64,000 nucleotides of DNA from Verrucomicrobiota bacterium (GTDB taxonomy: Bacteria; Verrucomicrobiota; Verrucomicrobiia; Limisphaerales; UBA9464), in contig VHCG01000010.1 in the NCBI GenBank assembly GCA_016871805.1, positions 1 to 64,000 on the forward strand, in the 5' to 3' direction. The translations under genes were made by a program, and so were the position numbers. Under the pieces are notes generated by a model. The model was not told where the DNA came from and ran no database searches. It saw only the letters and a list, made by a program, of their open reading frames with translations. Below, in pieces: positions 1 to 15,625 of the stretch. How positions within the stretch are numbered: position 1 is the stretch's first letter; each line of letters starts with the position of its first letter.

Positions 1-75
1 GATGTCCCAGGTGCGACCAGCCCGTACACGATCCCGCTGGGATCTCAGGTCAGGTTCTACCGCTCCTCGAACTGA
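1..75 (+). CDS. C-terminal end of a secreted protein (partial)
   Basis: The + strand is open from the window edge to a TGA at 73-75. The last residues read ...SQVRFYRSSN. Endings of the type RFYR... are frequent at the C-termini of secreted repeat proteins in Verrucomicrobiota, and the cyclophilin gene in this window ends similarly (FYRVRLGQ). The body of the protein lies outside the window, so no function can be given. A strong intrinsic terminator follows 21 nt after the stop, which supports this being a real gene end. Confidence 0.6.
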   Translation, partial: DVPGATSPYTIPLGSQVRFYRSSN

Positions 76-271: not shown

Positions 272-1348
272 TCACAGGTCCATCATCGGCACGTTTTGTG
301 CGAGGCGCGGATCCTGTTCCTTGCTCGGCCAGTCCGCGTTCCATACCCGGGTGGCGGCGGGGCTGATGGGCGGAATCATCCAGGACCAGTCCGCCTGGAC
401 CTCACGGCCGGATCGCTGTTCGCGATCGCAGAACTTCATGAAGTCCATGGTGGCGGTGTGGTGGTCGATCATGGTGACCCCAGCCTTCGAGAAGCTCTCG
501 AGCACCGCCTGGTTCAGAACCACGAGGGCCTCGTCCCGCCACAGGGTGTCCTCGCGGGACTGGTCGAGTCCCAGGACGCGACCCAGTGCGTCGAGCCCGT
601 CATAGCGGTCGGGATCGACCAGGTTCCGCGCGCCGATCTCAGTCCCCATGTACCAGCCATTGAACAGCGCGGTGGGGTAAACGATTCCCCCGGCCTCCAG
701 CCGGAAATCGCTCAGGGCCGGGACCGCATGCCAGCTCCAGTCCAATTGCTCCAGTGATGGATGGCGACCATGACGGATGGCGATACGCAGGATCTCCTCC
801 GGGTGCCACTGGATCAGGCTGCCGGATCCAACAGGGGTCTCGATCCAGACGGGCAGAACATCGAAGGCGCACCGGGTTGCCGGCGGTTGCCAGCCCTTCC
901 CGATCAGGAACCGGGTGAGTTCCGCATTGGCCCGGTCCCCGACGCCTAGATCCTCCCACCACGCATACTGGATCAACTGGTGGTTCCGGATCCGAGGACC
1001 TGGTTTGCCGGGATGGTCGGGAGCGAACACGGTCATCACCGGCCGGATCGCACCTCCGTGCGTGGCCAGGCGCAGGTGGCGCCGGATGGCCTTCTCCTGC
1101 TGCTCCAGGGTGATGGCATCCCGGGCATCGAGGACGCGAAGGGACTTCCAGTAGAGGCGGCCGACGCATCGGGTGCTGTTGCGCCACGCGACACGACCGG
1201 CCCACTCGAGTTCGGATGTTGTGTGGGTGTAGGTACCCGTCGACGTCAGCTCCTGCTCCACCCTCCCCATCCGTCCTGCCGGATCGATGTCTGTGCCGTC
1301 CTTCCCGGTCTCGGATTGGTACTGGCTGATGAATTCACGGGCCGCCAT
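272..1348 (-). CDS. nos: Bacterial nitric oxide synthase, oxygenase domain only
   Basis: 358 aa; produces NO and citrulline from arginine using electrons from a generic reductase, because no reductase domain is fused. Visible hallmarks are the heme-thiolate motif WRNSTRCVGR (Cys61), the arginine-binding segment NGWYMGTEIGARN (Glu237), IDHHTA near 295-299, and WMIPPISPAAT near the C-terminus. Length and order match the stand-alone NOS of Bacillus (about 363 aa, Cys66 in B. subtilis, from memory). The ATG at 1348 is chosen because MAAREFISQ lines up with the family N-terminus; the frame is open upstream to an ATG at 1453, but that extension is not family-like. No convincing ribosome binding site is visible at either. 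The TonB receptor gene lies upstream on the same strand with a gap of about 175 nt, so the two may or may not be cotranscribed. Confidence 0.93.
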   Translation of the reverse strand: MAAREFISQYQSETGKDGTDIDPAGRMGRVEQELTSTGTYTHTTSELEWAGRVAWRNSTRCVGRLYWKSLRVLDARDAITLEQQEKAIRRHLRLATHGGAIRPVMTVFAPDHPGKPGPRIRNHQLIQYAWWEDLGVGDRANAELTRFLIGKGWQPPATRCAFDVLPVWIETPVGSGSLIQWHPEEILRIAIRHGRHPSLEQLDWSWHAVPALSDFRLEAGGIVYPTALFNGWYMGTEIGARNLVDPDRYDGLDALGRVLGLDQSREDTLWRDEALVVLNQAVLESFSKAGVTMIDHHTATMDFMKFCDREQRSGREVQADWSWMIPPISPAATRVWNADWPSKEQDPRLAQNVPMMDL

Positions 1349-1523
1349 GACACGGTCCGTGTGTTTCCCAGTCTCAGACGGGGCCGACGCCGGTCTCGAC
1401 GAGCGTCCAGTGAAGGGACAGACGGCAGTTCGGTGACTCGATCCGGAGAGCATCCAACGGACAGTGGGGCCGTACCCGTTCTCGGCAAGCGCTCCGTGAA
1501 AGGACGTCCCCTGGGGTCCCGGC

Positions 1524-4418
1524 TCAGTACTCGTAGGTCATGGTCAGACCGATGAGGATGCCGGTGGTCGAGGACGAGTAGATGGGTCCGCCTTCCTGGT
1601 CGCCGTAGGACATGACCTGCGGGGAGTTCAGGATGTTCCGCGCCGCGAGGCGGAGCTTCCAGTGCTCGGCGAGGCGTTGGGTGACCACGAAGTTCAGCTG
1701 CATCGGCGGGAACGCATAGACGTCGGGACCCGCGCGATCGACGATGAACACATACGGTCCGACGGCGGTGAGCGAGATCGTTGCCGTGGTGCCGGAGGCC
1801 TTCCGATCGTACGTGAAGTCGTAGTTCACGATCCAGGGCGACTGGTCGTAGAGAGGCCGGGTCGCGGAGACATTCGGGAAGAGGACCTTTTCGTTCGCAA
1901 GTTCGGTGGCCGTCAGCCGGACCTCGGATTGGATGAAGGCGAAATTGAATCCAGTGCTGAACTCGTCGAGGGCATCGTCGATGAAATCCAGCTTGGTGTT
2001 GGCCTCGAACTCGACGCCGTAGAGCTGGGCTTCCTGGCGGTTCTCGAAGGTCACGATGCCACCGCCGAAGGTCAGGGCGACCTTCTCGATGGGATTCCGC
2101 AGGGTCTTGTAGAACGGGCTGACCGACAGCACGGCCCCGGGTTTGGGGTACCACTCCCAGCGCAGGTCGTAGTTGTCGATGTGCGTCATGATCAGGTTGG
2201 GATTGCCCTCGATGATCATGTTTCCGGAGGGGTCATAGGACCGGTACGGCGCCATTTCCCGGAAGGACGGGCGTGCGACAGTTTGGCTGAAGCTGACGCG
2301 GACATCCATGTTGGTCCGGATTGAATAGGTGGCGCTCAATGCCGGCATCACATCGAGCTCGTTGATGATCGAGGATGCTGTTCCGGCGGCGCCTCCGTCG
2401 CCCTTGATCGTGAGGTAGGTGTTCTCGAGGCGGGCACCGCCGAGGAGTTTCCAGTCCTCGGCCACCGGTAGTTCGACCATCGCATACCCGGCGGGGATGT
2501 CCCGCTCACCGCTGTAGGAAGCCGGAGAGATGCCTTCCTGGAACCAGCGCTGGAAGTTGTAGTTGGTGCCCCGTGTTGTGGTCTGGGTGGTGTAGAGAAG
2601 GTTGCCCGGGGTGAAGTAGTTGTTGGGGGTCGGTGGCGTGCCCCATCCGGTGGTGCCGGCAAACTGGAAGGTCTGCTCCTCGAACTCCCGTTCCGCCCCA
2701 TTGTAGCCCCCGCCGAACTTGAAGAAGGACTCCTCGCCCGCCCACTGCTTGAACGGGATCTTGTTGTTGAGCGCGGCCCAGATGCTGTCCTCCTCGACGG
2801 TCCGGTAGAAGCGCGTGGGGAAGATCGGCTCTGGGATCGAGTTCGAGAAGACCGGATCGACCCCATATTCGGGATACCCGTAGTTGAAGTACTTCAGATC
2901 AGGCTCGTCCTGGGAGGTGTTGGCGATCGACACCAGCCAGTCCGTCCGGAGGTCGAGGAAGTCCTCGAAGTGGTCGTCACCCTTGATCTGGAAGGCATGG
3001 ATCTGACGCTGGATCCATTGGATCATGTTGAGGTCGACAGTGGGCTCGAAGTTCTCGATGTGCCCGACCTGCCGGCGCGCGGTGTCCTCACCGCTCTGGT
3101 TCCAGTAGAAGGTGAACCCGACGGTGTGGTCCTCCGGGATGATCTCGTAGGCGAGGTTGATGACATTGGCCCAGTTGACCTCCATGACGCCTCGGGGGTC
3201 CTGGAACTGCGAGTAGGGGGCGATGGTGTCGACTCCGATGGGGCGGTACCGGCCCTGCACACCGTCGTCGTAGAAGGTCCATTTACGACGGTAGACGCCT
3301 CCGACGAAGTACCCGAAGTCGTGTCCATTGATGTCGATGGTGTCGCCCACCGAGAAGTTTCCGGAGTAGTTGGGAGGAGGCGCCTGGGGGGTTCCGGCGA
3401 AGTTGTAGTCCTGGAACGAGTTGAGCGCGGTCTGGAGCTTGTTCGCCTGGTCGGCCCGCTGCTTCGCCTGGGCGGGGGTCTGGTTGGCCGGGGCCTTGAT
3501 GGGTCGCCTCAGGGTCGACCCCGTCTGGCCATCCAGTGCCGACGGCAGCGCCCGGGCATCGTCCCCGAAACCAGCCCAGTCGAAGGGGCTTCCCGCCGAG
3601 GCGAGGAAGTTGGGGTTCAGCGTGGACTGGGTGTTGTATTCGACGCCCAATTCGAGCTGCAGGAAGAACCTATCCGGGAACGACTTCGTCACGATGTTCG
3701 CCAGACCGCCGGCGAACCCGCCCGGGAGGTCCGGGGTGAAGGTCTTGCTGACGGAGATCTCCCGGATCATTGAGGCGGGGATGATGTCGAGCGGGGCTCC
3801 CTGGCGGTACGGATCGGCTGTCGGGATCTGCGCGCCGTTCAGCTCGGTGATGTTGTAGCGGTCGCTGAGGCCGCGGATGACCGCGAACTTGCCGCCGACC
3901 ACCGTGGTGCCGGGGAGTTTTGTGATGATCTGGGCGGCGTCGGTCGCCCCAAGTCGACGGAACTGCTCGGAGCTGATGGCGTCGAGAAAGGAGGTCGAGG
4001 CCTGCCGTTGCTCGATGATCTCGAGGGCCTCGACCTGGAACTCCTCGGCCGTGACCTCGTATTCCTCCATCTCGAAGAACTCCGGACGCAGAGCGCCGGG
4101 CAGTTCCCGGACGAGTCCCGGGGCCACCCTAACACCGGTAGCGGTGGCCTGGGCGAAGCCGGATTTGCTGAAGCGCACGCTGTGCTCTCCGGCGGGAACG
4201 CCTTCCAGGCGATACCGGCCTGTGACGTCGGAGGTGGTGGCCAGCACGGTGCCCCGCACGGTGATGATCACCCCGGGCAGGGGACGGCCGTCCCAGCTGT
4301 TCACGACCATGCCGGACAACGTTCCGGTCTCCTGGGCGTGCACCGTCGACACGGTCCAGACCAGCAGCAACAGGGTCAGTGCCCAGCCGAGGCGGGCCTT
4401 GGAGAGGATGGAATCCAC
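1524..4418 (-). CDS. TonB-dependent outer-membrane receptor with carboxypeptidase-like N-terminal domain
   Basis: 964 aa. A signal peptide (about 1-28, ending VHAQ) is followed by a CarboxypepD_reg-like beta domain (about 32-110), a plug domain (about 140-260, with VIRGLSDRYN and the GGFAGGLANIVTK segment), and a long beta barrel ending in the aromatic C-terminus TMTYEY. The family imports scarce nutrients across the outer membrane using force delivered by TonB. The gene sits 31 nt downstream of the TPR protein that ends the TonB2-type operon, so it is probably the main client of that system. The substrate cannot be read from sequence; the nearby pst and porin genes make a phosphorus-containing ligand a reasonable guess only. 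Confidence 0.9.
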   Translation of the reverse strand: MDSILSKARLGWALTLLLLVWTVSTVHAQETGTLSGMVVNSWDGRPLPGVIITVRGTVLATTSDVTGRYRLEGVPAGEHSVRFSKSGFAQATATGVRVAPGLVRELPGALRPEFFEMEEYEVTAEEFQVEALEIIEQRQASTSFLDAISSEQFRRLGATDAAQIITKLPGTTVVGGKFAVIRGLSDRYNITELNGAQIPTADPYRQGAPLDIIPASMIREISVSKTFTPDLPGGFAGGLANIVTKSFPDRFFLQLELGVEYNTQSTLNPNFLASAGSPFDWAGFGDDARALPSALDGQTGSTLRRPIKAPANQTPAQAKQRADQANKLQTALNSFQDYNFAGTPQAPPPNYSGNFSVGDTIDINGHDFGYFVGGVYRRKWTFYDDGVQGRYRPIGVDTIAPYSQFQDPRGVMEVNWANVINLAYEIIPEDHTVGFTFYWNQSGEDTARRQVGHIENFEPTVDLNMIQWIQRQIHAFQIKGDDHFEDFLDLRTDWLVSIANTSQDEPDLKYFNYGYPEYGVDPVFSNSIPEPIFPTRFYRTVEEDSIWAALNNKIPFKQWAGEESFFKFGGGYNGAEREFEEQTFQFAGTTGWGTPPTPNNYFTPGNLLYTTQTTTRGTNYNFQRWFQEGISPASYSGERDIPAGYAMVELPVAEDWKLLGGARLENTYLTIKGDGGAAGTASSIINELDVMPALSATYSIRTNMDVRVSFSQTVARPSFREMAPYRSYDPSGNMIIEGNPNLIMTHIDNYDLRWEWYPKPGAVLSVSPFYKTLRNPIEKVALTFGGGIVTFENRQEAQLYGVEFEANTKLDFIDDALDEFSTGFNFAFIQSEVRLTATELANEKVLFPNVSATRPLYDQSPWIVNYDFTYDRKASGTTATISLTAVGPYVFIVDRAGPDVYAFPPMQLNFVVTQRLAEHWKLRLAARNILNSPQVMSYGDQEGGPIYSSSTTGILIGLTMTYEY

Positions 4419-4449: not shown

Positions 4450-5874
4450 TCAGGACCGGCGGCTCGCGTTGCGGGCGACCTGTTCGACCCGCTCGAGGTA
4501 GCGCTGGACGTTGTCGCGGGGCTTGACCTTCTGGGCCTTGCGCAGGAGTTCGAGGGCCGGTTCGTACTTCCGTGTGGAAACCATCAGCTGGGCCTGCTTG
4601 ACGAGGGAATCGGCCTCGAATCCATCGATCTTTCCGGCGGTCTCGTAGCGGAACAGCGCCTTCTCGGGCTGGCCGTTCCGGGCGTAGTAGTCGCCGGCCA
4701 TGATCAGCGCCTCGGCGTCGAGCGGGTTTTTTTGGATGACGCCCTCGAGCATCTCCATGGCCTTGGTGCCGTCCCCGGTCCCCAGCGCCACCTTGGCCGA
4801 CAGCTTGTACCACTTGAGCTCGTCGTTGCCGGTCAGGGCGGTGCCGGCCGTGGAGCGGATCTTCTCGAGCAGGTCGGAGGCCTCCTTGAACGCGCTGCGC
4901 GAGGCGAGGATGTCGGCCGCCCGCAGGGCCTTCGGAAGGTTGGTTCCTGGACCCTTCTCAACCGCTTCGTTGTAGGCGCCGAGGGCCAGGTCCCGCGCCT
5001 CCTGGTTCAGGTACAGGTCCCCAAGCATCAGGAGCTGGGCGGGGGTGGCCTTGCCGAGGCGCCGCAGCATCTCGAGCGACACCGCGGCCTTGTCCATCTG
5101 GCCCTTCTGCACGAACACATTGGCCTGCAGGGCCCAGAGGGCGTCGCGCTCGGGATGCTGCTGCAGGACCTCGTCGAGAAGCGCCAGCGCCTGGTCGTAG
5201 GACCCGAGGCCGATCGCGCTCTTCACCAGGCCGAGCTTGAAGTCGAGGTTGTCGGGCTCGAACAGCAGGGCCTGCTGATAGGCCCCCAGGGCGGAGGCGT
5301 TCCGACCCAGGTTGCCGTAGCAGTAGCCCAGGAACCCGAACACCTTCCCGTCGGGTCCGCCCAGGGAGAGAGTCTTCGACAGGGGCTGCACGGCCTTCTC
5401 GAACTGGCCGGTGCGGAGGTAGGCGAAGCCGAGGTTCTTCTGGGCGCGGAGGAAGTCCGGGAACTTGCCGATGGCCGCCTCGAAGGACGTGATGGCGTTG
5501 GTGAGGTCGTCGTTCTGGAAGTAGACGTTGCCGAGGGCGAAGTCGAACTGCGCGGTCGCTCCCGGCTTGGCGCGATCCTTGAGCAGGTCGATGGCCGCCT
5601 TGGCCTCGCCACGGAGTGCGGGCACGATCTTGTCGCGATACACGGCCTGCTCGTCAGGCGTCATGCGCGGCTCGATCTCCGACTTCATCCCATAGCTGCC
5701 CAGCATGCGGCGCTGGAACTCGGGATCGTTCCACATCGACGCCAGGGGGTTGGCGGCGGCGACCGGTGCGAAGGCGGCGGGGGTCTGTCCGGAGGGCGGG
5801 GTCGGATCCGCTGCGGCGAGGGGCAGGGACAGGACAACGGTCGCGAGGGCGGGGAGGAGGATGGGGGTTCTCAT
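4450..5874 (-). CDS. Periplasmic TPR-repeat protein of the TonB2-type operon
   Basis: 474 aa. A signal peptide (about 1-21, ending LPLAAA) precedes a long array of tetratricopeptide repeats (about 95-460), seen as recurring patterns such as LGFAYLRTGQFEKAVQPL, LGYCYGNLGRNASALGAY and AGDYYARNGQPEKALFRY. A TPR protein closes the TonB2 operon in Vibrio (established knowledge), where it is thought to act as a periplasmic scaffold. It lies 3 nt after tonB and 31 nt before the receptor gene, so the genes are almost certainly cotranscribed. Confidence 0.85.
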   Translation of the reverse strand: MRTPILLPALATVVLSLPLAAADPTPPSGQTPAAFAPVAAANPLASMWNDPEFQRRMLGSYGMKSEIEPRMTPDEQAVYRDKIVPALRGEAKAAIDLLKDRAKPGATAQFDFALGNVYFQNDDLTNAITSFEAAIGKFPDFLRAQKNLGFAYLRTGQFEKAVQPLSKTLSLGGPDGKVFGFLGYCYGNLGRNASALGAYQQALLFEPDNLDFKLGLVKSAIGLGSYDQALALLDEVLQQHPERDALWALQANVFVQKGQMDKAAVSLEMLRRLGKATPAQLLMLGDLYLNQEARDLALGAYNEAVEKGPGTNLPKALRAADILASRSAFKEASDLLEKIRSTAGTALTGNDELKWYKLSAKVALGTGDGTKAMEMLEGVIQKNPLDAEALIMAGDYYARNGQPEKALFRYETAGKIDGFEADSLVKQAQLMVSTRKYEPALELLRKAQKVKPRDNVQRYLERVEQVARNASRRS

Positions 5875-5877
5875 CGG

Positions 5878-6546
5878 TCAATTGCCCGGGGGGCGGAAAC
5901 GGAAGGTCTGCACGAGGTAGGTCCGGACGGCCTGGCCTTCCTTGCGGCCGGGGCGGAAGCGCCACTTGCGGATCGCTTCCAGACCGGACTTCTCGAACTC
6001 GGGATGGCTGGACTTCTCCACCCGGGCATCCTCGACACGGCCGTTCTCGTCGACGACGAACGCCACCGTGACGCTGCCCTCGACCTTGGCCTTGCGGAGC
6101 TCGGCCGGGTAGGCGGGTGGGGTCTGGGCGGTGGCCTGGGGGCGCTCCTCGAGATCGGCCGCGCTGAAGGCCTCGGCGACGCCCTCCGTCTCCTGGGCGG
6201 CCTGGGAGCCGGCGAGGCTGCTGAATCCGGGCAGGAAGCCGCCACCGCCCACGGCGACATCGAGGTCGGCCATGACCGGAACCTGTTGGGGGACGTCCGC
6301 GAGGGAAGGCGGCGGTGGGGTGTCCTCCTGGGGCTTCTCCTCCTCGGGCGGCGGTGGGGGTTCTTCCTCCGCCGGTGGCGGGATGTCGGCGACGCTCGCC
6401 TTCCGCAGCTCGAGGGTCCGCTCCGGCCGGGCCACCACATGGGTGAACGGCAGGATGAGGAAGATGCCGAACGTCATGGCGACCGACGTCGCCATGGCGA
6501 TCCACAGGCCCCGTTGGGAGTCCGTATGCTGGTAGACCTTCCGCAT
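5878..6546 (-). CDS. tonB: TonB-family energy transducer
   Basis: 222 aa. One N-terminal membrane helix (about 13-35), a Pro/Glu-rich periplasm-spanning stretch (about 50-80, with PPPAEEEPPPPPEEE), and a C-terminal TonB domain (about 135-220) with YPAELRKAKVEGSVTVAFVV and the WRFRPGRKEG segment. It transmits proton-motive force from ExbB/ExbD to outer-membrane receptors. The gene lies 14 nt after exbD. It is short, as is usual for TonB2-type proteins. Confidence 0.93.
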   Translation of the reverse strand: MRKVYQHTDSQRGLWIAMATSVAMTFGIFLILPFTHVVARPERTLELRKASVADIPPPAEEEPPPPPEEEKPQEDTPPPPSLADVPQQVPVMADLDVAVGGGGFLPGFSSLAGSQAAQETEGVAEAFSAADLEERPQATAQTPPAYPAELRKAKVEGSVTVAFVVDENGRVEDARVEKSSHPEFEKSGLEAIRKWRFRPGRKEGQAVRTYLVQTFRFRPPGN

Positions 6547-6560
6547 GCCGGTATCGGGGC

Positions 6561-6965
6561 TCAGCCCTTCTCGGTGGCCAGGCTCACGTCCTTGGCGCCA
6601 CCCAGTTTCGCCTCGTCGATCACCCGGATTAGGACCCCCGACTTGGAGTTCTCATCGCTCTGGATCACGACCGGCAGCGGTTCCTTGGCGCAGAGGCGCT
6701 TCACGGTGGGGCGGACACCGCCGAGCCCGATCTCCTTGCCGCCGTAGGCGACCTTTCCGTCGGAGGTGACGGCGAAGATGATGCTGTTCTTCTCGAGTTG
6801 ACGGGCACTGGCGGCCTGGGGCTTGTCGACCGTGACCCCGGGCTCCTCGACGAAGCTGGTGGTGGAGATGAAGAAGATCAGGAGGAACATGATCACGTCG
6901 ATGAGCGGGATCAGGTTCAGGTCGATGTTCTCCTCGGCCTCGGCGAGGTGGCGGCGGAACTTCAT
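6561..6965 (-). CDS. exbD: ExbD biopolymer transport protein
   Basis: 134 aa. A single transmembrane helix (about 17-38, NLIPLIDVIMFLLIFFISTT) carries the essential membrane aspartate (Asp23, equivalent to Asp25 of E. coli ExbD), followed by a periplasmic domain. It forms the proton channel stator together with ExbB. The gene is placed between exbB and tonB in the same direction with short gaps (22 and 14 nt). Confidence 0.95.
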   Translation of the reverse strand: MKFRRHLAEAEENIDLNLIPLIDVIMFLLIFFISTTSFVEEPGVTVDKPQAASARQLEKNSIIFAVTSDGKVAYGGKEIGLGGVRPTVKRLCAKEPLPVVIQSDENSKSGVLIRVIDEAKLGGAKDVSLATEKG

Positions 6966-6987
6966 GGAGAGGGGGGCGGGAGGAGGG

Positions 6988-7629
6988 TCAGGAGGGTTTC
7001 TGTCCCGTGGGCTTCGTGAACACGCGGGTCATGCCGTGGAACTGGGGGCGGAAGTGGCGGAGCGTGATGGTCTCGAGTCGGGCGAGGAACGAGACGAACT
7101 CGTTCCGGAGGATCTTGGCGATGTAGGCCGCAATGAGGCCTGGGATCGCCACCATCATCCCGGTCTGGGTCGCGACCAGTGCCTCGCTGATGCCCTTGGA
7201 GACGATCTCGGAGGCCGAGCCACCGCCGATGCCGATCGCCTTGAAGGTGAGGAGCATGCCCAGGACGGTGCCGAGCAGTCCGAAGAGGGGGGCGCCGACC
7301 ACCATGACGTTCAGGAAGGTGATCCGGCGGTCGACCTCCGAGACCTTGCTCGACTCGATCTCGCGGAATCGGCCCTCGATGTCCTCCAGCGAGCGCACTT
7401 CATCCTGCGTGTATCGGATCAGCTCCCGGAACTCGCCCGGGGCATTGGCCGGATCCCCCACCCAGCGACGCATGTCGGCATCGCTGATGCGGGTGATCCG
7501 GCGGTGGTAGAGGTTGACGACGAGGTAGGCGGCCGTGCCGTAGATGATCACCCCGAGGACCGCGAGGGCGATCATCACCCATCCTCCGGTGGACCACGCG
7601 TGGAGGAGTTCCTGGACGAAGGCGTTCAT
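6988..7629 (-). CDS. exbB: ExbB/TolQ-type proton channel protein
   Basis: 213 aa, MotA/TolQ/ExbB family. Three membrane helices are visible: about 12-38, 125-150 (VVGAPLFGLLGTVLGML) and 160-190 (ALVATQTGMMVAIPGLIAAY), with a cytoplasmic stretch between the first and second. The protein is ExbB2-like: short, without the periplasmic extension found in its upstream paralogue. It works with the adjacent ExbD and TonB. Confidence 0.93.
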   Translation of the reverse strand: MNAFVQELLHAWSTGGWVMIALAVLGVIIYGTAAYLVVNLYHRRITRISDADMRRWVGDPANAPGEFRELIRYTQDEVRSLEDIEGRFREIESSKVSEVDRRITFLNVMVVGAPLFGLLGTVLGMLLTFKAIGIGGGSASEIVSKGISEALVATQTGMMVAIPGLIAAYIAKILRNEFVSFLARLETITLRHFRPQFHGMTRVFTKPTGQKPS

Positions 7630-7647
7630 CGGCTGGCCGGCGAGGGG

Positions 7648-9069
7648 TCAGGCGAACGGGTTCTGCTCGGGAAGGCCGTTGATGAAGCCGACCGAGGTCT
7701 GCTCGAGGCTGCCCATGATCCCCTTGGCCTTGCGGCTGAGGAACGCGTGGAGGAGCAGGGCGGGGATGGCGACCATCATGCCCGAGGCGGTGGCGATGAG
7801 GGCCTCGGAGATGCCGGAGGCCAGCACCTTGGGATCCCCGCTGCCGAAGCTGGAGATGAGCTTGAAGAGCGCGATCATGCCCATGACGGTGCCGAGCAGT
7901 CCGAACAGGGGGCCGGTGGTGGCGGTCAGCGCCAGGAAGGGAAGACCGCGTTCGAGTCGGATCCGCCAGCCGAGCATCTTCTCGTACATGACCTCCTCGA
8001 TGTATTCCTTCTTCTCGTCCGAGTGCTCGACGGCGGCGGACAGAAGCTCGCCGGCGGGACCGGGGATGGAGCGGGCATGGGTCAGGGCTCCGGGCTGATC
8101 CCCCTTGCCGAGGTGCTGCAGCACGGTCTGGAGATCCTTCTCCGTGGCGAGGCGGACCCGGGAGAGCTGGATCCATTTCACCAGGGCCACGACGGCGGTG
8201 GCGAACCCGAGGATCAGAAGCGGTGCCATGACCCAGCCACCGTGTTTGATCTTCTCGAAGAGCGTCTCCTCCATCGCGCTGAGCTTGAAGGCGTTCCCGA
8301 GGGTGGGATCGAGGGTGATCCGGCCCTTGCCCGTGGTCACCAGCTCCCGGGTTGCCGTCTCCGTCTCGGGGTTGATGGCGATGACGGTGGGGTCGGACTT
8401 GTTCAGCTCCATCTGCAGCAGTCCAGCCGTGGTTCCTGCGGTGTCGGCAAACAGGGAAATGGGTCCGATGAGCGCAATCTTGCCCTTCTGGACCCGGCCT
8501 TGGCGGTCAAGGGCGCGGCCCTCGAAGATCTCGCCACCCAACGCGGAGCGGCCGCGTCCGAGGGCGGTCTTGAGGATGGCGGTACGGCGTTCGATCCGGT
8601 CCGCGGGTGCCAGGTCGGGTGCAACGGCGGCCTTCTCGGCCGCCTCGACGGCTGGCAGATACTTGGACTCCTCGGCGAAGTTGAGGCGCGACCGGAAGGC
8701 CCGCGTGTATTCGGTCAGGAGGGAATCGATGTAGCCGACCTCGTCGGCCCGGCGTTTGGCCTCCGCCTTGAGGGCGTTGAGCTCGACGAGCTGGTTCTCC
8801 TGGAAGCGCTGGGCCTTCGCCAGCTCGGCCCGTTGGTCTGCGAGGCGCTGCTCCAGGTCGTTGATCTCGCGTCCCATCGGGACCCGCTCGGCCTCGATCT
8901 TCTGTCGGACCTCGGCGAGGGTGGCGAGGGCCTTCTGGAGATCGGACTGGGCTCCGTTGGCGAGGCCGGTGAGGTCGGCCTCCGCAGCCTGGGTGCCGAG
9001 GGAAAGGATCGCCCCGAGGGCGAGCGCATGGAGAGGACGGAAGGACATGGGACGGAGGAGAAGGGTCAT
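7648..9069 (-). CDS. TtpC-like ExbB with large periplasmic coiled-coil domain
   Basis: 473 aa. A signal peptide (about 1-30) precedes a coiled coil (about 35-125, heptad-like, with MGREINDLEQRLADQRAEL), a beta-rich periplasmic middle, and a C-terminal MotA/TolQ/ExbB domain (about 270-460) with LFGLLGTVMGMIALF and IATASGMMVAIPALLLHAF. In Vibrio TonB2 systems the equivalent protein is TtpC, needed for TonB2-dependent transport (established knowledge). The start ATG overlaps the stop of the DUF3450 gene (ATGA at 9066-9069), which indicates translational coupling. Confidence 0.9.
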   Translation of the reverse strand: MTLLLRPMSFRPLHALALGAILSLGTQAAEADLTGLANGAQSDLQKALATLAEVRQKIEAERVPMGREINDLEQRLADQRAELAKAQRFQENQLVELNALKAEAKRRADEVGYIDSLLTEYTRAFRSRLNFAEESKYLPAVEAAEKAAVAPDLAPADRIERRTAILKTALGRGRSALGGEIFEGRALDRQGRVQKGKIALIGPISLFADTAGTTAGLLQMELNKSDPTVIAINPETETATRELVTTGKGRITLDPTLGNAFKLSAMEETLFEKIKHGGWVMAPLLILGFATAVVALVKWIQLSRVRLATEKDLQTVLQHLGKGDQPGALTHARSIPGPAGELLSAAVEHSDEKKEYIEEVMYEKMLGWRIRLERGLPFLALTATTGPLFGLLGTVMGMIALFKLISSFGSGDPKVLASGISEALIATASGMMVAIPALLLHAFLSRKAKGIMGSLEQTSVGFINGLPEQNPFA

Positions 9070-9890
9070 TCGACGGTGGCGGGGAGGCTCACGAAGCGCG
9101 CCGTACGCTCGTTGCGATAGATCCGGATCACCTCCCGGACGGGATCGGCCAGCTTCGGATCAAGGGTCCAGTCCCAGCCCTGGGCACCCGGTCGACCGTG
9201 TCCGGCGAAGTCCCCGGACTCGTTGACGAAATAGGCGGCACCCAGCCCGGCATAGACGGTTTCCACGGAAACCTCCTCACCGTTGGGACCCTTCCGCTTC
9301 TCGGTGAAGACCGTCACGGCGTTGTTGAACTTGTCGATCTCGTTGAGGAGGGACACGAGCGTCTGGATGCGCTCCGTCGGGGCGGCCTTGGTGGTGTTGG
9401 GGTCGGCCGGAAGCTTGTTGAGCAGGGGCTGGGCAGTGGATAGGACCGCCGCGGGAAGCAGTGGGAGGAGTGACTTCACCTCGGTCTCGAGGGATGCGGC
9501 GGCCACCTTGGCCCGCTCGAGCGCCTCGTTCGACCGCTTCAGCTCCGTCTCGGCCTTCAGCCGCTCGACATCGGCCACGGAGCTGTTCGTGCTCTGCTTG
9601 CCCATCTCGTCCTGGCCCGCCTTCAGCTCCCGTTCGAACAGGGCCTTGGACTGCTGGAGGAGTTCCCGGTCGGCCTCCCAGTCGCTGCGAGTCTTGGAGA
9701 TCAACTGCTGGGTCTGGACCCATTGGGCCACCGTCTCACGGGTCGAGTTCAGGGAGGGGTCGGCTGCCTGGACGGAGTGGATCAGGGCTGTGCCCAGCCC
9801 CACGGAGATCAGCAGCGTGCCGTAGGATGTCGGACTCATCCCGGCCAGCATCCCGGTCCACCGGTGTCGGCCATATGGCGCGAGCGTCAC
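9066..9890 (-). CDS. DUF3450 periplasmic protein, first gene of TonB2-type operon
   Basis: 274 aa from a GTG at 9890; in-frame ATGs at 9851 and 9839 are alternatives. The GTG start gives a positively charged N-terminus before the hydrophobic segment ending HSVQAAD, and a GGAG lies just upstream of it. The mature part is a coiled coil (about 50-140) followed by a C-terminal globular part with the family-like segment YAGLGAAYFVNESGDFAG. DUF3450 proteins precede ttpC in TonB2 operons; their role is thought to be structural or regulatory. The 268 bp upstream form the divergent promoter region shared with the porin gene. Confidence 0.85.
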   Translation of the reverse strand: MTLAPYGRHRWTGMLAGMSPTSYGTLLISVGLGTALIHSVQAADPSLNSTRETVAQWVQTQQLISKTRSDWEADRELLQQSKALFERELKAGQDEMGKQSTNSSVADVERLKAETELKRSNEALERAKVAAASLETEVKSLLPLLPAAVLSTAQPLLNKLPADPNTTKAAPTERIQTLVSLLNEIDKFNNAVTVFTEKRKGPNGEEVSVETVYAGLGAAYFVNESGDFAGHGRPGAQGWDWTLDPKLADPVREVIRIYRNERTARFVSLPATVE

Positions 9891-9973: not shown

Positions 9974-10158
9974 AATCGGACTCCGATTCGGAACACTCCG
10001 ACCGCTGCCTTGGGTCCGCCATGAGTCCAAGACGTCTTCAGTCCGCCGAGAGAGTCCCAGCCCCGACTTCGTTTACCCATGCTGTGACGAAAGGGAAACG
10101 GTTCGGTGTCGATCCGGTGACTGGCTCCAATCGGGTGACGCTGCGGTCGTCCGTGCCG

Positions 10159-11649
10159 ATGGTTCCGGTCTGGCGGAAGTGGGGTGCCGGTCTCCTGGGT
10201 TTGGCGCTCGCGGTCCAGCCGGGTTGGGCGGCTCCGGATCCGGCGATGCTGCAGCTCTTCAAGATCCTGAGGGACCGGGGCTCGATCAGTCCCGAGGAGT
10301 ACCAGCTGTTGGTGAACATGGCTGGCGCGCCTGAGAATTCCGGAAAACCTGCGGTCGAAACCCCAGGTGTGGCGACCTCGGCACCGACGCCGACCCCTGC
10401 TCCAGGGAAGGCGGACGAGGTCGCCGTGCCGGTCCCGCCAGGGGTGGCCAACACCGCGTCGTCCACCAATGCCGTGGCCAAGGCTGCCGCGGCGGCGGTG
10501 CCGAAGGAGAAGGAGAAATGGTACCAGAAGTTCAACGTGGGCGGGTACACGCAGTTCCGGGTGACGGCGCTGCTCAATGAGGAGGCGGATGGGCTGGACG
10601 TCCCGAACGATCCGTCGGTGAGCCCCACCGCGCTGTTCACCATCCGCCGGGCCCGGTTCCGGATGGCGGGGGATGTGTCCCCCCACCTGTCCTTGTATGC
10701 CCAGGTGGACGCCTTCGCCAACATCGTCAGTGGCGGAGGCTCCTCCTCGGGGGTCCAGCTGCGTGACCTCTATGCCGATGTCTACCCGACCGATTCCCGG
10801 GAGGTCTGGTTCCGTCTGGGACAGTCCAAGGTCCCGTACGGATGGGTGAACATGCAGTCGAGCCAGAACCGGTCCCCGATGGAACGGCCGGACTCGATCA
10901 ACTCGGCGGCCGAGGGCGAACGCGACATCGGGGCGTTCGCCATGTACGCCCCGGAGGAAGCCCGCAAGCGGTTCAAGGAGCTCGTGCAGTCGGGGCTCAA
11001 GGGTTCGGGTGACTACGGGGTGCTGTCGTTTGGCGCCTACAATGGACAGGGCGCCAACAGGCCCGACCTGAATGGCTTTCCGCACTGGATTGCCCGGGCC
11101 GACTACCCGTTCAAGTTGGAGAACGGCCAGTTTGTTGAGGTGGGTCTCCAAGGCTACCTCGGACGGTATGTCCCCTCCGTCCAGACCGTCTCCTACAATG
11201 GAAGGCCGGTGACGCCCCGCTTCGACCCTGATGGGGTGATGGACCGCCGGGTCGCCGCGACGGCGGTGTGGTATCCGCAGCCGTTCGGGTTCGAGGCCGA
11301 ATGGAACATCGGCACGGGTCCGCGCCTGAAATACGACTTCTCGCAGATCAATTCGGGGTGGCTGAACGGCGGATACCTCCAGGCCAACTACCAGATCGGG
11401 GTGGGCAGCGGAAAGCTGTTCCCCTACTCACGCTGGCACTACTACCAGGGTGGACGGAAGTTCGGCAACAACGCGCCCTTTCAATACGTCAACGAACTCG
11501 ACTTTGGATTCGAGTACTCACCCTGGACCGATCTTGAGCTGAGTGTGCAGTACACTTGGACCTTCGACCGGACCAACACCAGAGGGGCGCCGTATGCCGA
11601 CGTCCAGGGGGCCAGCCGCATCGAGTTCCAGGCCCAGTGGAACTACTGA
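10159..11649 (+). CDS. Phosphate-selective porin O/P family protein
   Basis: 496 aa from the ATG at 10159, chosen because it places a signal peptide at the N-terminus (about 1-26, ending QPGWA). The frame is open upstream to 10021, but those residues look untranslated. A Pro/Thr-rich linker (about 65-115) is followed by a Porin_O_P-type barrel: KFNVGGYTQFRVTALL, FTIRRARFRMAGDVSPHL, the SRFKVPYG-like segment GQSKVPYGWVNMQSS, and a C-terminal strand ending in FQAQWNY. The family forms anion or phosphate channels in Pseudomonas (OprP/OprO). Its place directly before pstS strongly suggests outer-membrane phosphate entry. Confidence 0.9.
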   Translation: MVPVWRKWGAGLLGLALAVQPGWAAPDPAMLQLFKILRDRGSISPEEYQLLVNMAGAPENSGKPAVETPGVATSAPTPTPAPGKADEVAVPVPPGVANTASSTNAVAKAAAAAVPKEKEKWYQKFNVGGYTQFRVTALLNEEADGLDVPNDPSVSPTALFTIRRARFRMAGDVSPHLSLYAQVDAFANIVSGGGSSSGVQLRDLYADVYPTDSREVWFRLGQSKVPYGWVNMQSSQNRSPMERPDSINSAAEGERDIGAFAMYAPEEARKRFKELVQSGLKGSGDYGVLSFGAYNGQGANRPDLNGFPHWIARADYPFKLENGQFVEVGLQGYLGRYVPSVQTVSYNGRPVTPRFDPDGVMDRRVAATAVWYPQPFGFEAEWNIGTGPRLKYDFSQINSGWLNGGYLQANYQIGVGSGKLFPYSRWHYYQGGRKFGNNAPFQYVNELDFGFEYSPWTDLELSVQYTWTFDRTNTRGAPYADVQGASRIEFQAQWNY

Positions 11650-11745
11650 CACGCAACGGAGCCGGCCTTCATGGCGCGGTTGTTGCCATGTCGTCACACA
11701 ACTGGAAGAGGACTGCAACCTGCGTTATCTGAATTTAAGGGAATC

Positions 11746-12588
11746 GTGATTGGCTTTGTCCGAGTGCTGTGTCTGTGGGGTTGGATGGGTCTGGTTGGCC
11801 GTGTTTTGGCCGGGGAGATCACCGTTAAGGGATCCGACACCCTCGTGGTGCTGGCCCAGCGGTGGGCCGAGACCTACATGGCCGGGCACCCGGGCACCCG
11901 CATCCAGGTCACGGGCGGTGGGACCGGGACCGGGTTTGCGGCGTTGCAGAACCAGACCACCGACATCTGCACGGCCTCGCGTCGATTGAAAGCTCGGGAG
12001 CTTGAGACCTGCATCCGCACCTTCCGGAAGCGTCCGGCCGAGCATGCGGTCGCGATGGACGGGCTCAGCGTGTACGTGAATCCATCGAACCCCATTCGGG
12101 AGCTGAGTCTGGAAGATCTCCGGGAGGTATTCACCGGGCGGATCACCAACTGGAAGGATCTGGGAGGTCCCGACGCCCCGATCACCCTGTACAGCCGTGA
12201 GAGCAGCTCCGGGACCTATGAGTTCTTCAAGGAACGGGTGCTGTCGGGACGGGATTTCGCGCCCACGATGCAGACCCTCCAGGGCACGGCGCAGGTGATC
12301 CAGGCGGTCGGGCAAGATCGCCTGGGCATCGGCTACGGCGGGGCGGCCTATGGGTCGGGGGCCAAGACGCTGGGAATCGCCCGGACCCGGGGCGGCATGG
12401 CGGTGGAGCCCAACGAGAAGACAGTCCATTCCGGGGAGTATCCAGTGTCGCGCTACCTCTACTGCTATGTGAATCCATCGACCGACCGCCCGGAGATCGC
12501 CAACTTCCTCGGCTGGATCCGTGGTCCTGAGGGCCAGTCTCTGGTTCGCGACGTCGGCTACTATCCCCTTCCAGTCCGGCGGGACTGA
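11746..12588 (+). CDS. pstS: Phosphate ABC transporter substrate-binding protein
   Basis: 280 aa from a GTG at 11746 preceded by AAGGGA; this start gives a short signal peptide (ending GRVLAGE). The fold is that of periplasmic phosphate binders: ITVKGSDTL at the mature N-terminus, VTGGGTGTGFAAL, and the SRESSSGTYEFFKE loop whose Ser/Gly/Thr residues contact phosphate. It captures Pi in the periplasm and delivers it to PstCA. It follows the porin with a 96-nt gap and precedes pstC. Confidence 0.95.
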   Translation: MIGFVRVLCLWGWMGLVGRVLAGEITVKGSDTLVVLAQRWAETYMAGHPGTRIQVTGGGTGTGFAALQNQTTDICTASRRLKARELETCIRTFRKRPAEHAVAMDGLSVYVNPSNPIRELSLEDLREVFTGRITNWKDLGGPDAPITLYSRESSSGTYEFFKERVLSGRDFAPTMQTLQGTAQVIQAVGQDRLGIGYGGAAYGSGAKTLGIARTRGGMAVEPNEKTVHSGEYPVSRYLYCYVNPSTDRPEIANFLGWIRGPEGQSLVRDVGYYPLPVRRD

Positions 12589-12654
12589 TGTTTATCCCGG
12601 CTGGCGGCTTGCCTGAGGCCCTCCGCTGCGCGAAAACCTTCCCGGCTTCATCCC

Positions 12655-13848
12655 GTGCATCCGACTCCCACTTCCACCGCGGTCCCGACTTCCGGGTGGA
12701 TGGGGTTGCGCCGGGGTCATCGGGCCCGTCCGGGAGAGTGGATCATTGAGAAGCTCATCCAGGCCGTCGGGCTCTCCACGATCGGGTTGATGGTGTTGAT
12801 CCTCGTCTTCGTGGGTCGTGAGGCGCTTCCGGTCCTCATGGGCCGTATCAACACCGCCCTGGTCCAGCCCATCCTCCCGTCGAAGGAGATTGACTCGATC
12901 CCGCGGGACGACCTGCGGTCCTATCTGGAACTTTCGCGAAGCCAGTTCGAGGGCATGGATCGGGAGATGCTCATGGCGATGATGGAGGCCCGGGAGGAGG
13001 GGTTCAGGGACATCCCGGAATCCTTCAGGGCCGATCCGGATTCCACGGTCAACACGGCCGACTGGCGTCAGCTCCTCCTGCCCCGGCAGTGGACCGGCTA
13101 CACCCGTCCCGAATTCGTCTGGCAGCCCGTCGGAACGATCCACAAGTACAACCTGGTCCCGCTGTTGGTCGGAAGCCTCAAGGTGACCCTGGTGGGTCTG
13201 CTGTTCGCCGTGCCCCTGTCGCTGGGTGCCGCCCTCTACGTCAGCCAGCTGGCGCCGGTCCGGGTCCGTGAGTGGGTCAAGCCCACGATCGAACTGCTGG
13301 CGGGGATCCCCTCGGTGGTTCTAGGCGTGTTCTGCCTGCTCGTGCTGTCCGGCCTCCTCCAGTCCCTGTTCGGCTACCAGTTCCGCCTCAACGCGCTGGT
13401 CGCAGGGATTGGCCTGGGCCTCACCGCCGTACCCCTTATCTTCACGATCGCGGAGGATTCCTTCACGGGTGTCCCACGCGGATATGTCCAGGCCTCCCTC
13501 GCGCTCGGGGCCTCCCCGTGGCAGGCCGCCTGGCAGGTCGTCCTTCCCTCGGCGATGCCGGGTGTTGTGGCGGCGATGATCCTGGGATTCGGCCGGTGCC
13601 TGGGGGAGACGATGGTGGTGCTGATGGCCAGCGGCAACGCGAGCATGCTCTCGTGGAGCCTCTTCGATTCGACCCGGTCCATGACCGCCACGATCGCCGC
13701 GGAGATGGCCGAGGCGGTTTCGGGCGGGGGTCACTATCGGATGCTGTTCCTGCTGGGCACGCTGCTCTTCGCGATCTCGTTCGTGACCCACCTGATCGGG
13801 GGTCGGATCGTCCGGCGTCTCAGGCGTCGACTGGGGGGCGTGGCATGA
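12655..13848 (+). CDS. pstC: Phosphate ABC transporter permease PstC
   Basis: 397 aa from a GTG at 12655; an ATG at 12700 is an alternative, and neither has a clear ribosome binding site. One membrane helix (about 36-58) is followed by a periplasmic segment of about 100 residues and then the BPD permease domain (about 165-390) with the coupling motif EDSFTGVPRGYVQASLALGA. The long loop after helix 1 is larger than in E. coli PstC. The stop codon overlaps the pstA start (ATGA, 13845-13848). Confidence 0.94.
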   Translation: MHPTPTSTAVPTSGWMGLRRGHRARPGEWIIEKLIQAVGLSTIGLMVLILVFVGREALPVLMGRINTALVQPILPSKEIDSIPRDDLRSYLELSRSQFEGMDREMLMAMMEAREEGFRDIPESFRADPDSTVNTADWRQLLLPRQWTGYTRPEFVWQPVGTIHKYNLVPLLVGSLKVTLVGLLFAVPLSLGAALYVSQLAPVRVREWVKPTIELLAGIPSVVLGVFCLLVLSGLLQSLFGYQFRLNALVAGIGLGLTAVPLIFTIAEDSFTGVPRGYVQASLALGASPWQAAWQVVLPSAMPGVVAAMILGFGRCLGETMVVLMASGNASMLSWSLFDSTRSMTATIAAEMAEAVSGGGHYRMLFLLGTLLFAISFVTHLIGGRIVRRLRRRLGGVA

Positions 13849-14789
13849 GGCCGATCGGGGAATCCCGGCGCCTGGGACGGTGGGGTGGTCCCGCGGGGAT
13901 CGTGGGCCTCATCCTGACCGGGTTGGCCACCCTGGTGCTTCTGGCGTTTCTGGTCGCCCTTCTGACGACAGTGCTGTCCAAGGGCATGCCCGCTTTTTCC
14001 TGGCGGTTTGTGTCGACCATCCCGAGGAAGGATTTCTTCGATGTCGATTCGGCCGCCATCCTGCCGATGGTCGTGGGGACATCCCTGCGGGTCCTGATCA
14101 TGACGGTCTTCGTGATGCCTTTTGGTGTGATCACCGCCGTCTACCTGACGGAGTACGCCGATCCGGCCTCTCCCTTCACCCGCGGGATCCGCGCGGCGAT
14201 CGGCAACATCGCGGGTGTCCCCTCGATTGTCTTCGGGCTCTTCGGCCTGGGATTCTTCGTGAATTTTCTGGGTCGAGGACTGGACGGGCTCACGGGCTCT
14301 GGTGTGCCGGTATTCGGTCGACCGTCCCTTCTGTGGGCCTCCCTAACCCTTGCGGTCATGACGCTCCCGGTCGTCATCGTCGCCACCGAGGAATCGCTGC
14401 GTTCGATCCCGTCCGGATTGCGCGAGGCCAGTCTGGCCCTGGGGGCCACGAAGCTCGAGACGGTCTGGACGATCGTGCTGCCCCAGGCGTTGCCGGGAAT
14501 CCTCACCGGCGGGATCCTCGCGGTGGGCCGGGCTGCGGGCGAGGTGGCACCAATCCTTTTCACGGGGGCGGCCTATTACACGGCTGAGCTGCCAGGCCGG
14601 CTGACGGACCAGTTCATGGACCTGGGATACCATGTCTATGTCCTCGCCACGCAGTCACCGAATGTCGACCAGACGGCCCCGATCCTCTATGCCACGGCCT
14701 TGGCGCTGCTGGTGCTGACCCTGGCCCTGAATGCCGGGGCGATCCTCCTCCGAAGCCGCATGAGAAGGAACCTGCGGGAGGCTGTCTGA
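13845..14789 (+). CDS. pstA: Phosphate ABC transporter permease PstA
   Basis: 314 aa. The ATG at 13845 overlaps the pstC stop, so this start is preferred although the frame is open far upstream on the + strand. Six membrane helices are visible, with the coupling loop [19 protein letters not shown] and the C-terminal helix [18 protein letters not shown]. It forms the Pi channel with PstC. It ends 11 nt before pstB. Confidence 0.95.
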
Positions 14790-14800
14790 GACCCAGGACC

Positions 14801-15625
14801 ATGGAAACCCCCACATCCAGATCGATTCCGGCCGAGGATGCCTTGGATTCCGAATCCCCCTCGAGGACCTCCCCGCCGGCGATCGAGACCAAGGATCTGT
14901 GTCTTTCCTATGACGAGGCCCCGGCCCTGAGGGATGTGTCGCTGTCGGTTCCAGAACGCCAGGTCACGGCGCTCATCGGGCCTTCCGGCTGCGGCAAGTC
15001 CACCCTTCTGAGATGCTTCAATCGGATGAACGACCTCATCCCCGGGGTTCGTGTCACGGGCCAATGCAGGGTCGGGGGGCAGGACATTCTTGGCGACGGG
15101 GTCGACGTCATCGGGCTGCGCAAGCAGGTCGGCATGGTCTTCCAGCGGTCGAATCCGTTCCCGATGTCGATCCGGGCCAACATGGCCTATGGGTTGAAGC
15201 TGCAGGGACTCCGCAACCGGGTGGAGCAGGACCGGATCGTGGAGGAATCCCTCCGGGCGGCCGCCCTCTGGGATGAGGTGAAGGATCGGCTGGACCGCAA
15301 CGCCCTGGAGCTTTCCGGCGGGCAGCAGCAGCGGCTGTGCATCGCGCGCGCGATCGCCATCCGGCCACGGATCCTCCTCATGGACGAACCGGCCTCGGCC
15401 CTGGATCCAATCACCACGATGCGCATCGAGGAGCTGATCCTCGAGCTCCGACGGGACTACACCATCGTCATCGTGACCCACAACATGCAGCAGGCCGCCC
15501 GGATCTCGGATCGGACCGCGTTTCTCTATCTGGGAGAAGTGGTGGAATTCGACCGGACCTCGAGGATCTTCACCCATCCACGGGATCAGCGGACGGAGGA
15601 CTATGTGACGGGGCGCTTCGGGTGA
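14801..15625 (+). CDS. pstB: Phosphate ABC transporter ATPase
   Basis: 274 aa. Walker [13 protein letters not shown], the PstB-typical NRMNDLIPG, the Q-loop in [11 protein letters not shown], signature [14 protein letters not shown], Walker [15 protein letters not shown]-loop THNMQQA. It has about 30 extra N-terminal residues relative to E. coli PstB. It powers the PstCA channel. Confidence 0.97.

Follow-up and report, generated by a model that had tools for sequence, protein, structure and literature searches.

A predicted stand-alone nitric oxide synthase and its TonB-associated neighbourhood in a Verrucomicrobiota genome

Does a nitric oxide synthase (NOS) gene that lies next to a TonB-dependent receptor in a Gram-negative bacterium encode a conventional member of its family, and does its position tell us what it is for? 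These questions are raised by a 64,000-nucleotide stretch of a Verrucomicrobiota genome (the window), in which a preliminary description had recognised a stand-alone bacterial NOS (bNOS) at positions 272–1348, downstream of a TonB receptor and near phosphate genes, and had taken this setting as a hint of a role in metal or oxidative stress.

The gene and its product

The open reading frame at 272–1348 is intact and lies on the minus strand, which the preliminary description did not give. It codes for 358 residues and stays open further upstream to an ATG at 1453, giving a protein of 393 residues (272–1453, minus strand). The start at 1453 is probably the correct one, so that the frame as first delimited would be 35 codons short. 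This start is favoured because 12 of the N-terminal 14 residues (MLSGSS-x-RTAVCP-x, except at two positions) are identical in a same-genus gene (locus L024), while the DNA from the receptor to the ATG shows no recognisable likeness to that locus. Over the first 36 residues the two proteins share 17, the divergence coming after the first 14. Across the whole gene dN/dS between the pair is approximately 0.20 (0.125/0.629; NG86), which indicates purifying selection.

The contig is 81,677 bases long and the window starts at one end of it, with the NOS gene 271 bases from that end. In the interval lies a GC-rich, terminator-like hairpin (97–122, between NOS and a convergent gene), which has a folding energy of −36.9 kcal/mol within a stretch of 60 bases and whose sequence is also found downstream of NOS at L024; a consensus terminator scan listed no terminator at the hairpin. 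The contig end truncates the convergent gene (window 1–75), leaving the tail of a large Laminin_G_3 protein, whose 24 residues are 92% identical to a 1489-residue Laminin_G_3 protein of the same-genus genome G001 (L024:8840–13309).

The protein matches the NOS oxygenase family PF02898 at 398.7 bits, where the cut-off is 22.7 (E 2.9e-119; profile positions 8–355 of 362), and contains the motifs WRNSTRCVGRLYW, NGWYMGTEIGARN and WMIPPISPAAT. A search of NCBIfam matched no family. No other Pfam family scored above its cut-off in the 393-residue frame, so there is no fused reductase. By sequence search of the PDB the best solved relative is the Bacillus subtilis NOS (bsNOS; PDB 1m7v and relatives) with an E of 1.7e-90, followed by a 1468-residue NOS chain, labelled 'Nitric oxide synthase' and 'Ferredoxin--NADP reductase', and mammalian NOS. 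A model of the monomer, predicted from 32 aligned NOS with a mean pLDDT of 84.4, superposes on bsNOS with a Z score of 44.2 over 357 residues (1.6 Å, 36% identity). Like bsNOS, the window protein has a single oxygenase domain and no reductase, and shares the heme cysteine, the Trp, Tyr and Glu of the arginine site and the pterin-site tryptophan. It differs in having Leu247 where bsNOS has Ile218, Leu263 in place of a proline, and an N-terminal extension of approximately 28 residues with a CPF motif (pLDDT below 50 at residues 1–26).

A Cys-Pro pair followed by a hydrophobic residue, 38–115 residues ahead of the heme cysteine, is more widespread: it occurs in 25 of 100 NOS against approximately 3.7 expected by shuffling, and in 11 of 20 from Verrucomicrobiota. 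These counts come from the 100 of 109 sequences in which the heme-Cys pattern was matched, and from stop-to-stop frames, so that some copies may precede the true start. The window copy is at 1418–1420. Presumably the motif lies near the place of the zinc site of mammalian NOS. We do not claim it as a zinc site: the mammalian type is Cys-X4-Cys, whereas the window protein has CPFTGR, with one cysteine (Cys12) and none at the fifth residue on, and the same-genus protein has CPWSGH, giving Cys-X4-His.

Active site and proposed reaction

Conservation was assessed in 106 aligned NOS domains, with 80 of the 585 confirmed genome matches kept, a set that is biased in being mostly from Actinobacteria and Bacilli. 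A duplicate of L029 (L005) and the broken or partial sequences L018, L022 and L023 had been left out beforehand. The proximal heme ligand, Cys96, sits within WRNxxRCxGR (WRNSTRCVGR; codon 1166–1168, minus strand, in coordinates from the 1453 start), and is kept in all 106 domains, as are Arg91, Tyr163, Glu272, Trp356 and Trp358. Trp356 and Trp358 are at the pterin site, and one of them we take to be the tryptophan that stacks on the pterin. At the arginine site Trp267 (98 of 106), Tyr268 (105 of 106) and Glu272 (NGWYMGTEIG; codon 638–640, minus strand) all align with those of other NOS; the roles of these Tyr, Trp and Glu residues are set out in PMC9500659. A comparison of heme, arginine and pterin residues had been proposed in the preliminary description, as had the profile search reported above. 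Both came out in favour of a stand-alone bNOS in a Gram-negative phylum, with a clear family match and with the heme and arginine sites complete.

It is almost certain, in our judgement, that the gene encodes a bacterial NOS oxygenase of the stand-alone type. To judge from its homologues, the product would be a heme-thiolate homodimer that converts L-arginine to citrulline and NO in two steps on the Cys-ligated heme, by way of N-hydroxyarginine. The pterin would likely be tetrahydrofolate, and the electrons would be borrowed from a general cellular flavoprotein; activity, cofactor and donor are predictions. A FolE2-type GTP cyclohydrolase is encoded in the genome (PF02649, 313 bits), which fits folate as the source of the pterin. 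Neither a classical FolE nor an H-NOX sensor partner was found in the genome, and as it is approximately 91% complete both absences are weak. No dedicated partner gene adjoins NOS. A 609-residue flavodoxin-FAD-NAD diflavin reductase, probably a sulfite-reductase-type flavoprotein, is encoded at C5 of the genome and could act as the electron donor. General reductases supply electrons to other bNOS, according to PMC3701330.

Lineage, substitutions and fused relatives

The family tree took in 54 of the 106 sequences. The window NOS forms a clade with full support (100/100) together with L029, from the same genus (84% identity), and L004, from G017 of the same family (approximately 55%); its stem branch is 0.85. 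The tree suggested in the preliminary description gives the protein a clade of its own, but not a supported sister group. AU tests rejected none of three placements of the clade: with 14 other verrucomicrobial NOS (p 0.203), with the fused NOS described below (p 0.319) or with 18 actinobacterial NOS (14.1 log units worse, p 0.185).

Among the matches listed, the best-scoring named ones outside the phylum are actinobacterial. The bNOS of Pseudonocardiales (Umezawaea, Saccharothrix, Lentzea) are likewise stand-alone and approximately 45–50% identical in the best segments, but the tree lends them no support as sisters. A recent transfer from Actinobacteria, considered on the strength of these matches, is at most a possibility, as the tree gives no supported sister and the actinobacterial grouping is one of three placements that the AU tests do not reject. 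A viral origin was also considered, but the 57 pattern matches obtained from viral contigs included no gene for a relative.

Counting the window's own genome, NOS was found in 18 of the 387 Verrucomicrobiota genomes drawn, in 5 of 320 from the order and in 4 of 50 from the family. The gene is accessory and patchily distributed. The genomes G414 and G526, which belong to different orders, carry an identical 2,944-base NOS-bearing sequence (L018 and L116), with an in-frame TAG that breaks the NOS frame in both. This points to cross-binning, with one copy or both probably assigned to the wrong genome; G526 is one of the 5 in 320.

NOS has also been reported from freshwater verrucomicrobial MAGs, including one of Opitutae, in PMC5673642. 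These other verrucomicrobial proteins are stand-alone oxygenases from the same phylum, though the window NOS falls in a separate clade. Given this report and the count of 18 in 387, a NOS in a Gram-negative bacterium is not new. The view that bNOS is less common in Gram-negative phyla, repeated in the preliminary description, is out of date, as proteobacterial, cyanobacterial and verrucomicrobial NOS were all found here. What the locus adds is a clear Verrucomicrobiota clade under purifying selection, and a correction to the view of NOS as a Gram-positive trait. Judged on its sequence, the window protein belongs to a well-known enzyme family, within which it is somewhat divergent.

Some of the divergence concerns the distal pocket, where the clade supplies natural variants at two positions. 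Leu263 (codon 665–667, minus strand), beside the distal heme pocket, replaces a residue that is Pro in 102 of the 106 domains and Val in one, leucine being confined to the three members of the window clade. Phe250 stands for a methionine kept in 102 of the 103 NOS outside it. Both substitutions are common to all three clade members and occur in no other sequence of the set. At the NO-release gate, I218 in B. subtilis by the PDB-match alignments, the window protein has Leu247 (codon 713–715, minus strand), where isoleucine is found in 73 of the 106 domains, valine in 23 and leucine in 10. Leucine at the gate was considered as a unique mark of the clade and rejected, since it is also found in 7 of 103 sequences outside. 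An exchange of Ile for Val at this gate is described in PMC9500659. All three substitutions lie near the distal pocket, and could alter or weaken catalysis.

Such changes could mean that the protein is a diverged paralogue which has kept the NOS fold but carries out a changed reaction, with slower NO release, nitroxyl or nitrate as the output, or another substrate. The long, fully supported stem is consistent with this, as are the otherwise rare substitutions, which besides Leu263 and Phe250 include Trp165-Trp166, Val312 and Glu319/Arg319. However, the heme-, arginine- and pterin-binding residues have all been kept and the leucine gate recurs outside the clade, and we consider a changed reaction unlikely. 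A conventional NOS reaction remains the preferred reading.

A second type of NOS was encountered in relatives, in which the oxygenase is fused to other domains. It is encoded in G001 (L027:3112–6510), in G005 (L026:8146–11397) and in a Gammaproteobacteria MAG (L107:5832–9083), and G001 holds both the fused and the stand-alone form. The order is cyclic-nucleotide-binding domains, a BFD-like 2Fe-2S domain, a flavin reductase region and a C-terminal NOS oxygenase. Two cyclic-nucleotide-binding domains are present in L027 and L107, and one over threshold in L026. Within the reductase region FAD_binding_6 is matched in L026 and L107 and NAD_binding_1 in L107, with no reductase family over threshold in L027. 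In a class-level relative, G217, fragments on two contigs (L022 and L023) resemble a similar fused NOS, L022 ending in a NOS domain after a stretch that by eye is similar to L002 and L003 in their BFD/reductase part.

The domain order matches that of the inverted scNOS of Sorangium cellulosum as this is described in PMC3701330. The window NOS is like scNOS in coming from a Gram-negative bacterium and in its oxygenase domain family, but it lacks the N-terminal Fe-S/FAD/NAD reductase that scNOS has and that the second NOS type of G001 and G005 also possesses. We found no bacterial NOS with cyclic-nucleotide-binding domains in open-licence PMC, and the fused architecture may be published elsewhere. 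From its domains the fused NOS is possibly controlled by a second messenger. This enzyme would matter more: if the domains bind cyclic nucleotide, a second messenger would be directly coupled to bacterial NO synthesis.

A broader picture might be drawn, in which the window clade is a separate lineage with a distal pocket rebuilt by the leucine gate, Leu263 and Phe250, so that its NO release or product would differ from that of known bNOS. In this picture the same family would also hold a self-sufficient NOS regulated by cyclic nucleotides, with one genus having two NOS types under different control. Taken as a whole we regard it as doubtful.

The uptake genes beside the synthase

The TonB receptor and the phosphate-type genes near NOS are real. 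The receptor gene (1524–4418, minus strand; PF00593, PF07715, PF13620) lies upstream of NOS. By their Pfam matches the genes that follow at 4450–9890, also on the minus strand, encode a TPR protein, TonB, ExbD, ExbB, a large ExbB-like protein and a DUF3450 protein, and make up the energy-transduction operon of the receptor. Divergent from the operon is a Porin_O_P gene (10021–11649; Pfam), and genes for a phosphate-type PBP-like protein, a permease and an ABC ATPase occupy 11671–15625, where the specificity for phosphate is a prediction.

The arrangement could suggest that NOS belongs functionally to this TonB/phosphate operon, being transcribed together with the receptor and supplying NO or citrulline under metal or phosphate limitation. 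The gene is on the same strand, with its ATG 70 bases past the receptor stop (1454–1523), and G001 keeps the same order with a gap of approximately 80 bases. Scans of the gap for promoter-like and terminator-like sites listed neither, though they have little power in a GC-rich, non-model phylum. Against this, the gaps within the operon are at most 31 bases, and the association itself is rarely kept. Receptor matches were found in 35 of 50 family genomes, and of 20 receptor loci examined, a subset of the family's matches, NOS lies beside the receptor in only two, those of the window and G001. In the same-genus genomes G002 and G003, extended stretches contain the receptor but no NOS, and in G017 NOS lies by a PQQ-propeller gene away from the TonB operon, while its own receptor has no NOS. 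Membership of the operon is thus very unlikely, and a functional link to it, considered as the leading view, was rejected on the count of receptor loci.

It follows that the neighbourhood of NOS gives no grounds for linking its role to TonB, metals or phosphate, and the suggestion of a metal or oxidative-stress role from the position next to the receptor falls with it. The position beside the operon is a local arrangement in one genus, in which the uptake genes are probably chance neighbours of NOS rather than its partners, and gene order here is a poor guide to role. The GC3 of NOS is 0.79, against 0.86–0.92 for the operon genes, which may hint weakly at a separate history, though many other genes in the window have similar values.

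The uptake genes form an arrangement of their own between 4450 and 15625, where the DUF3450 TonB system stands back to back with the Porin_O_P and phosphate-type ABC genes, perhaps for the TonB-driven uptake of a phosphate compound.
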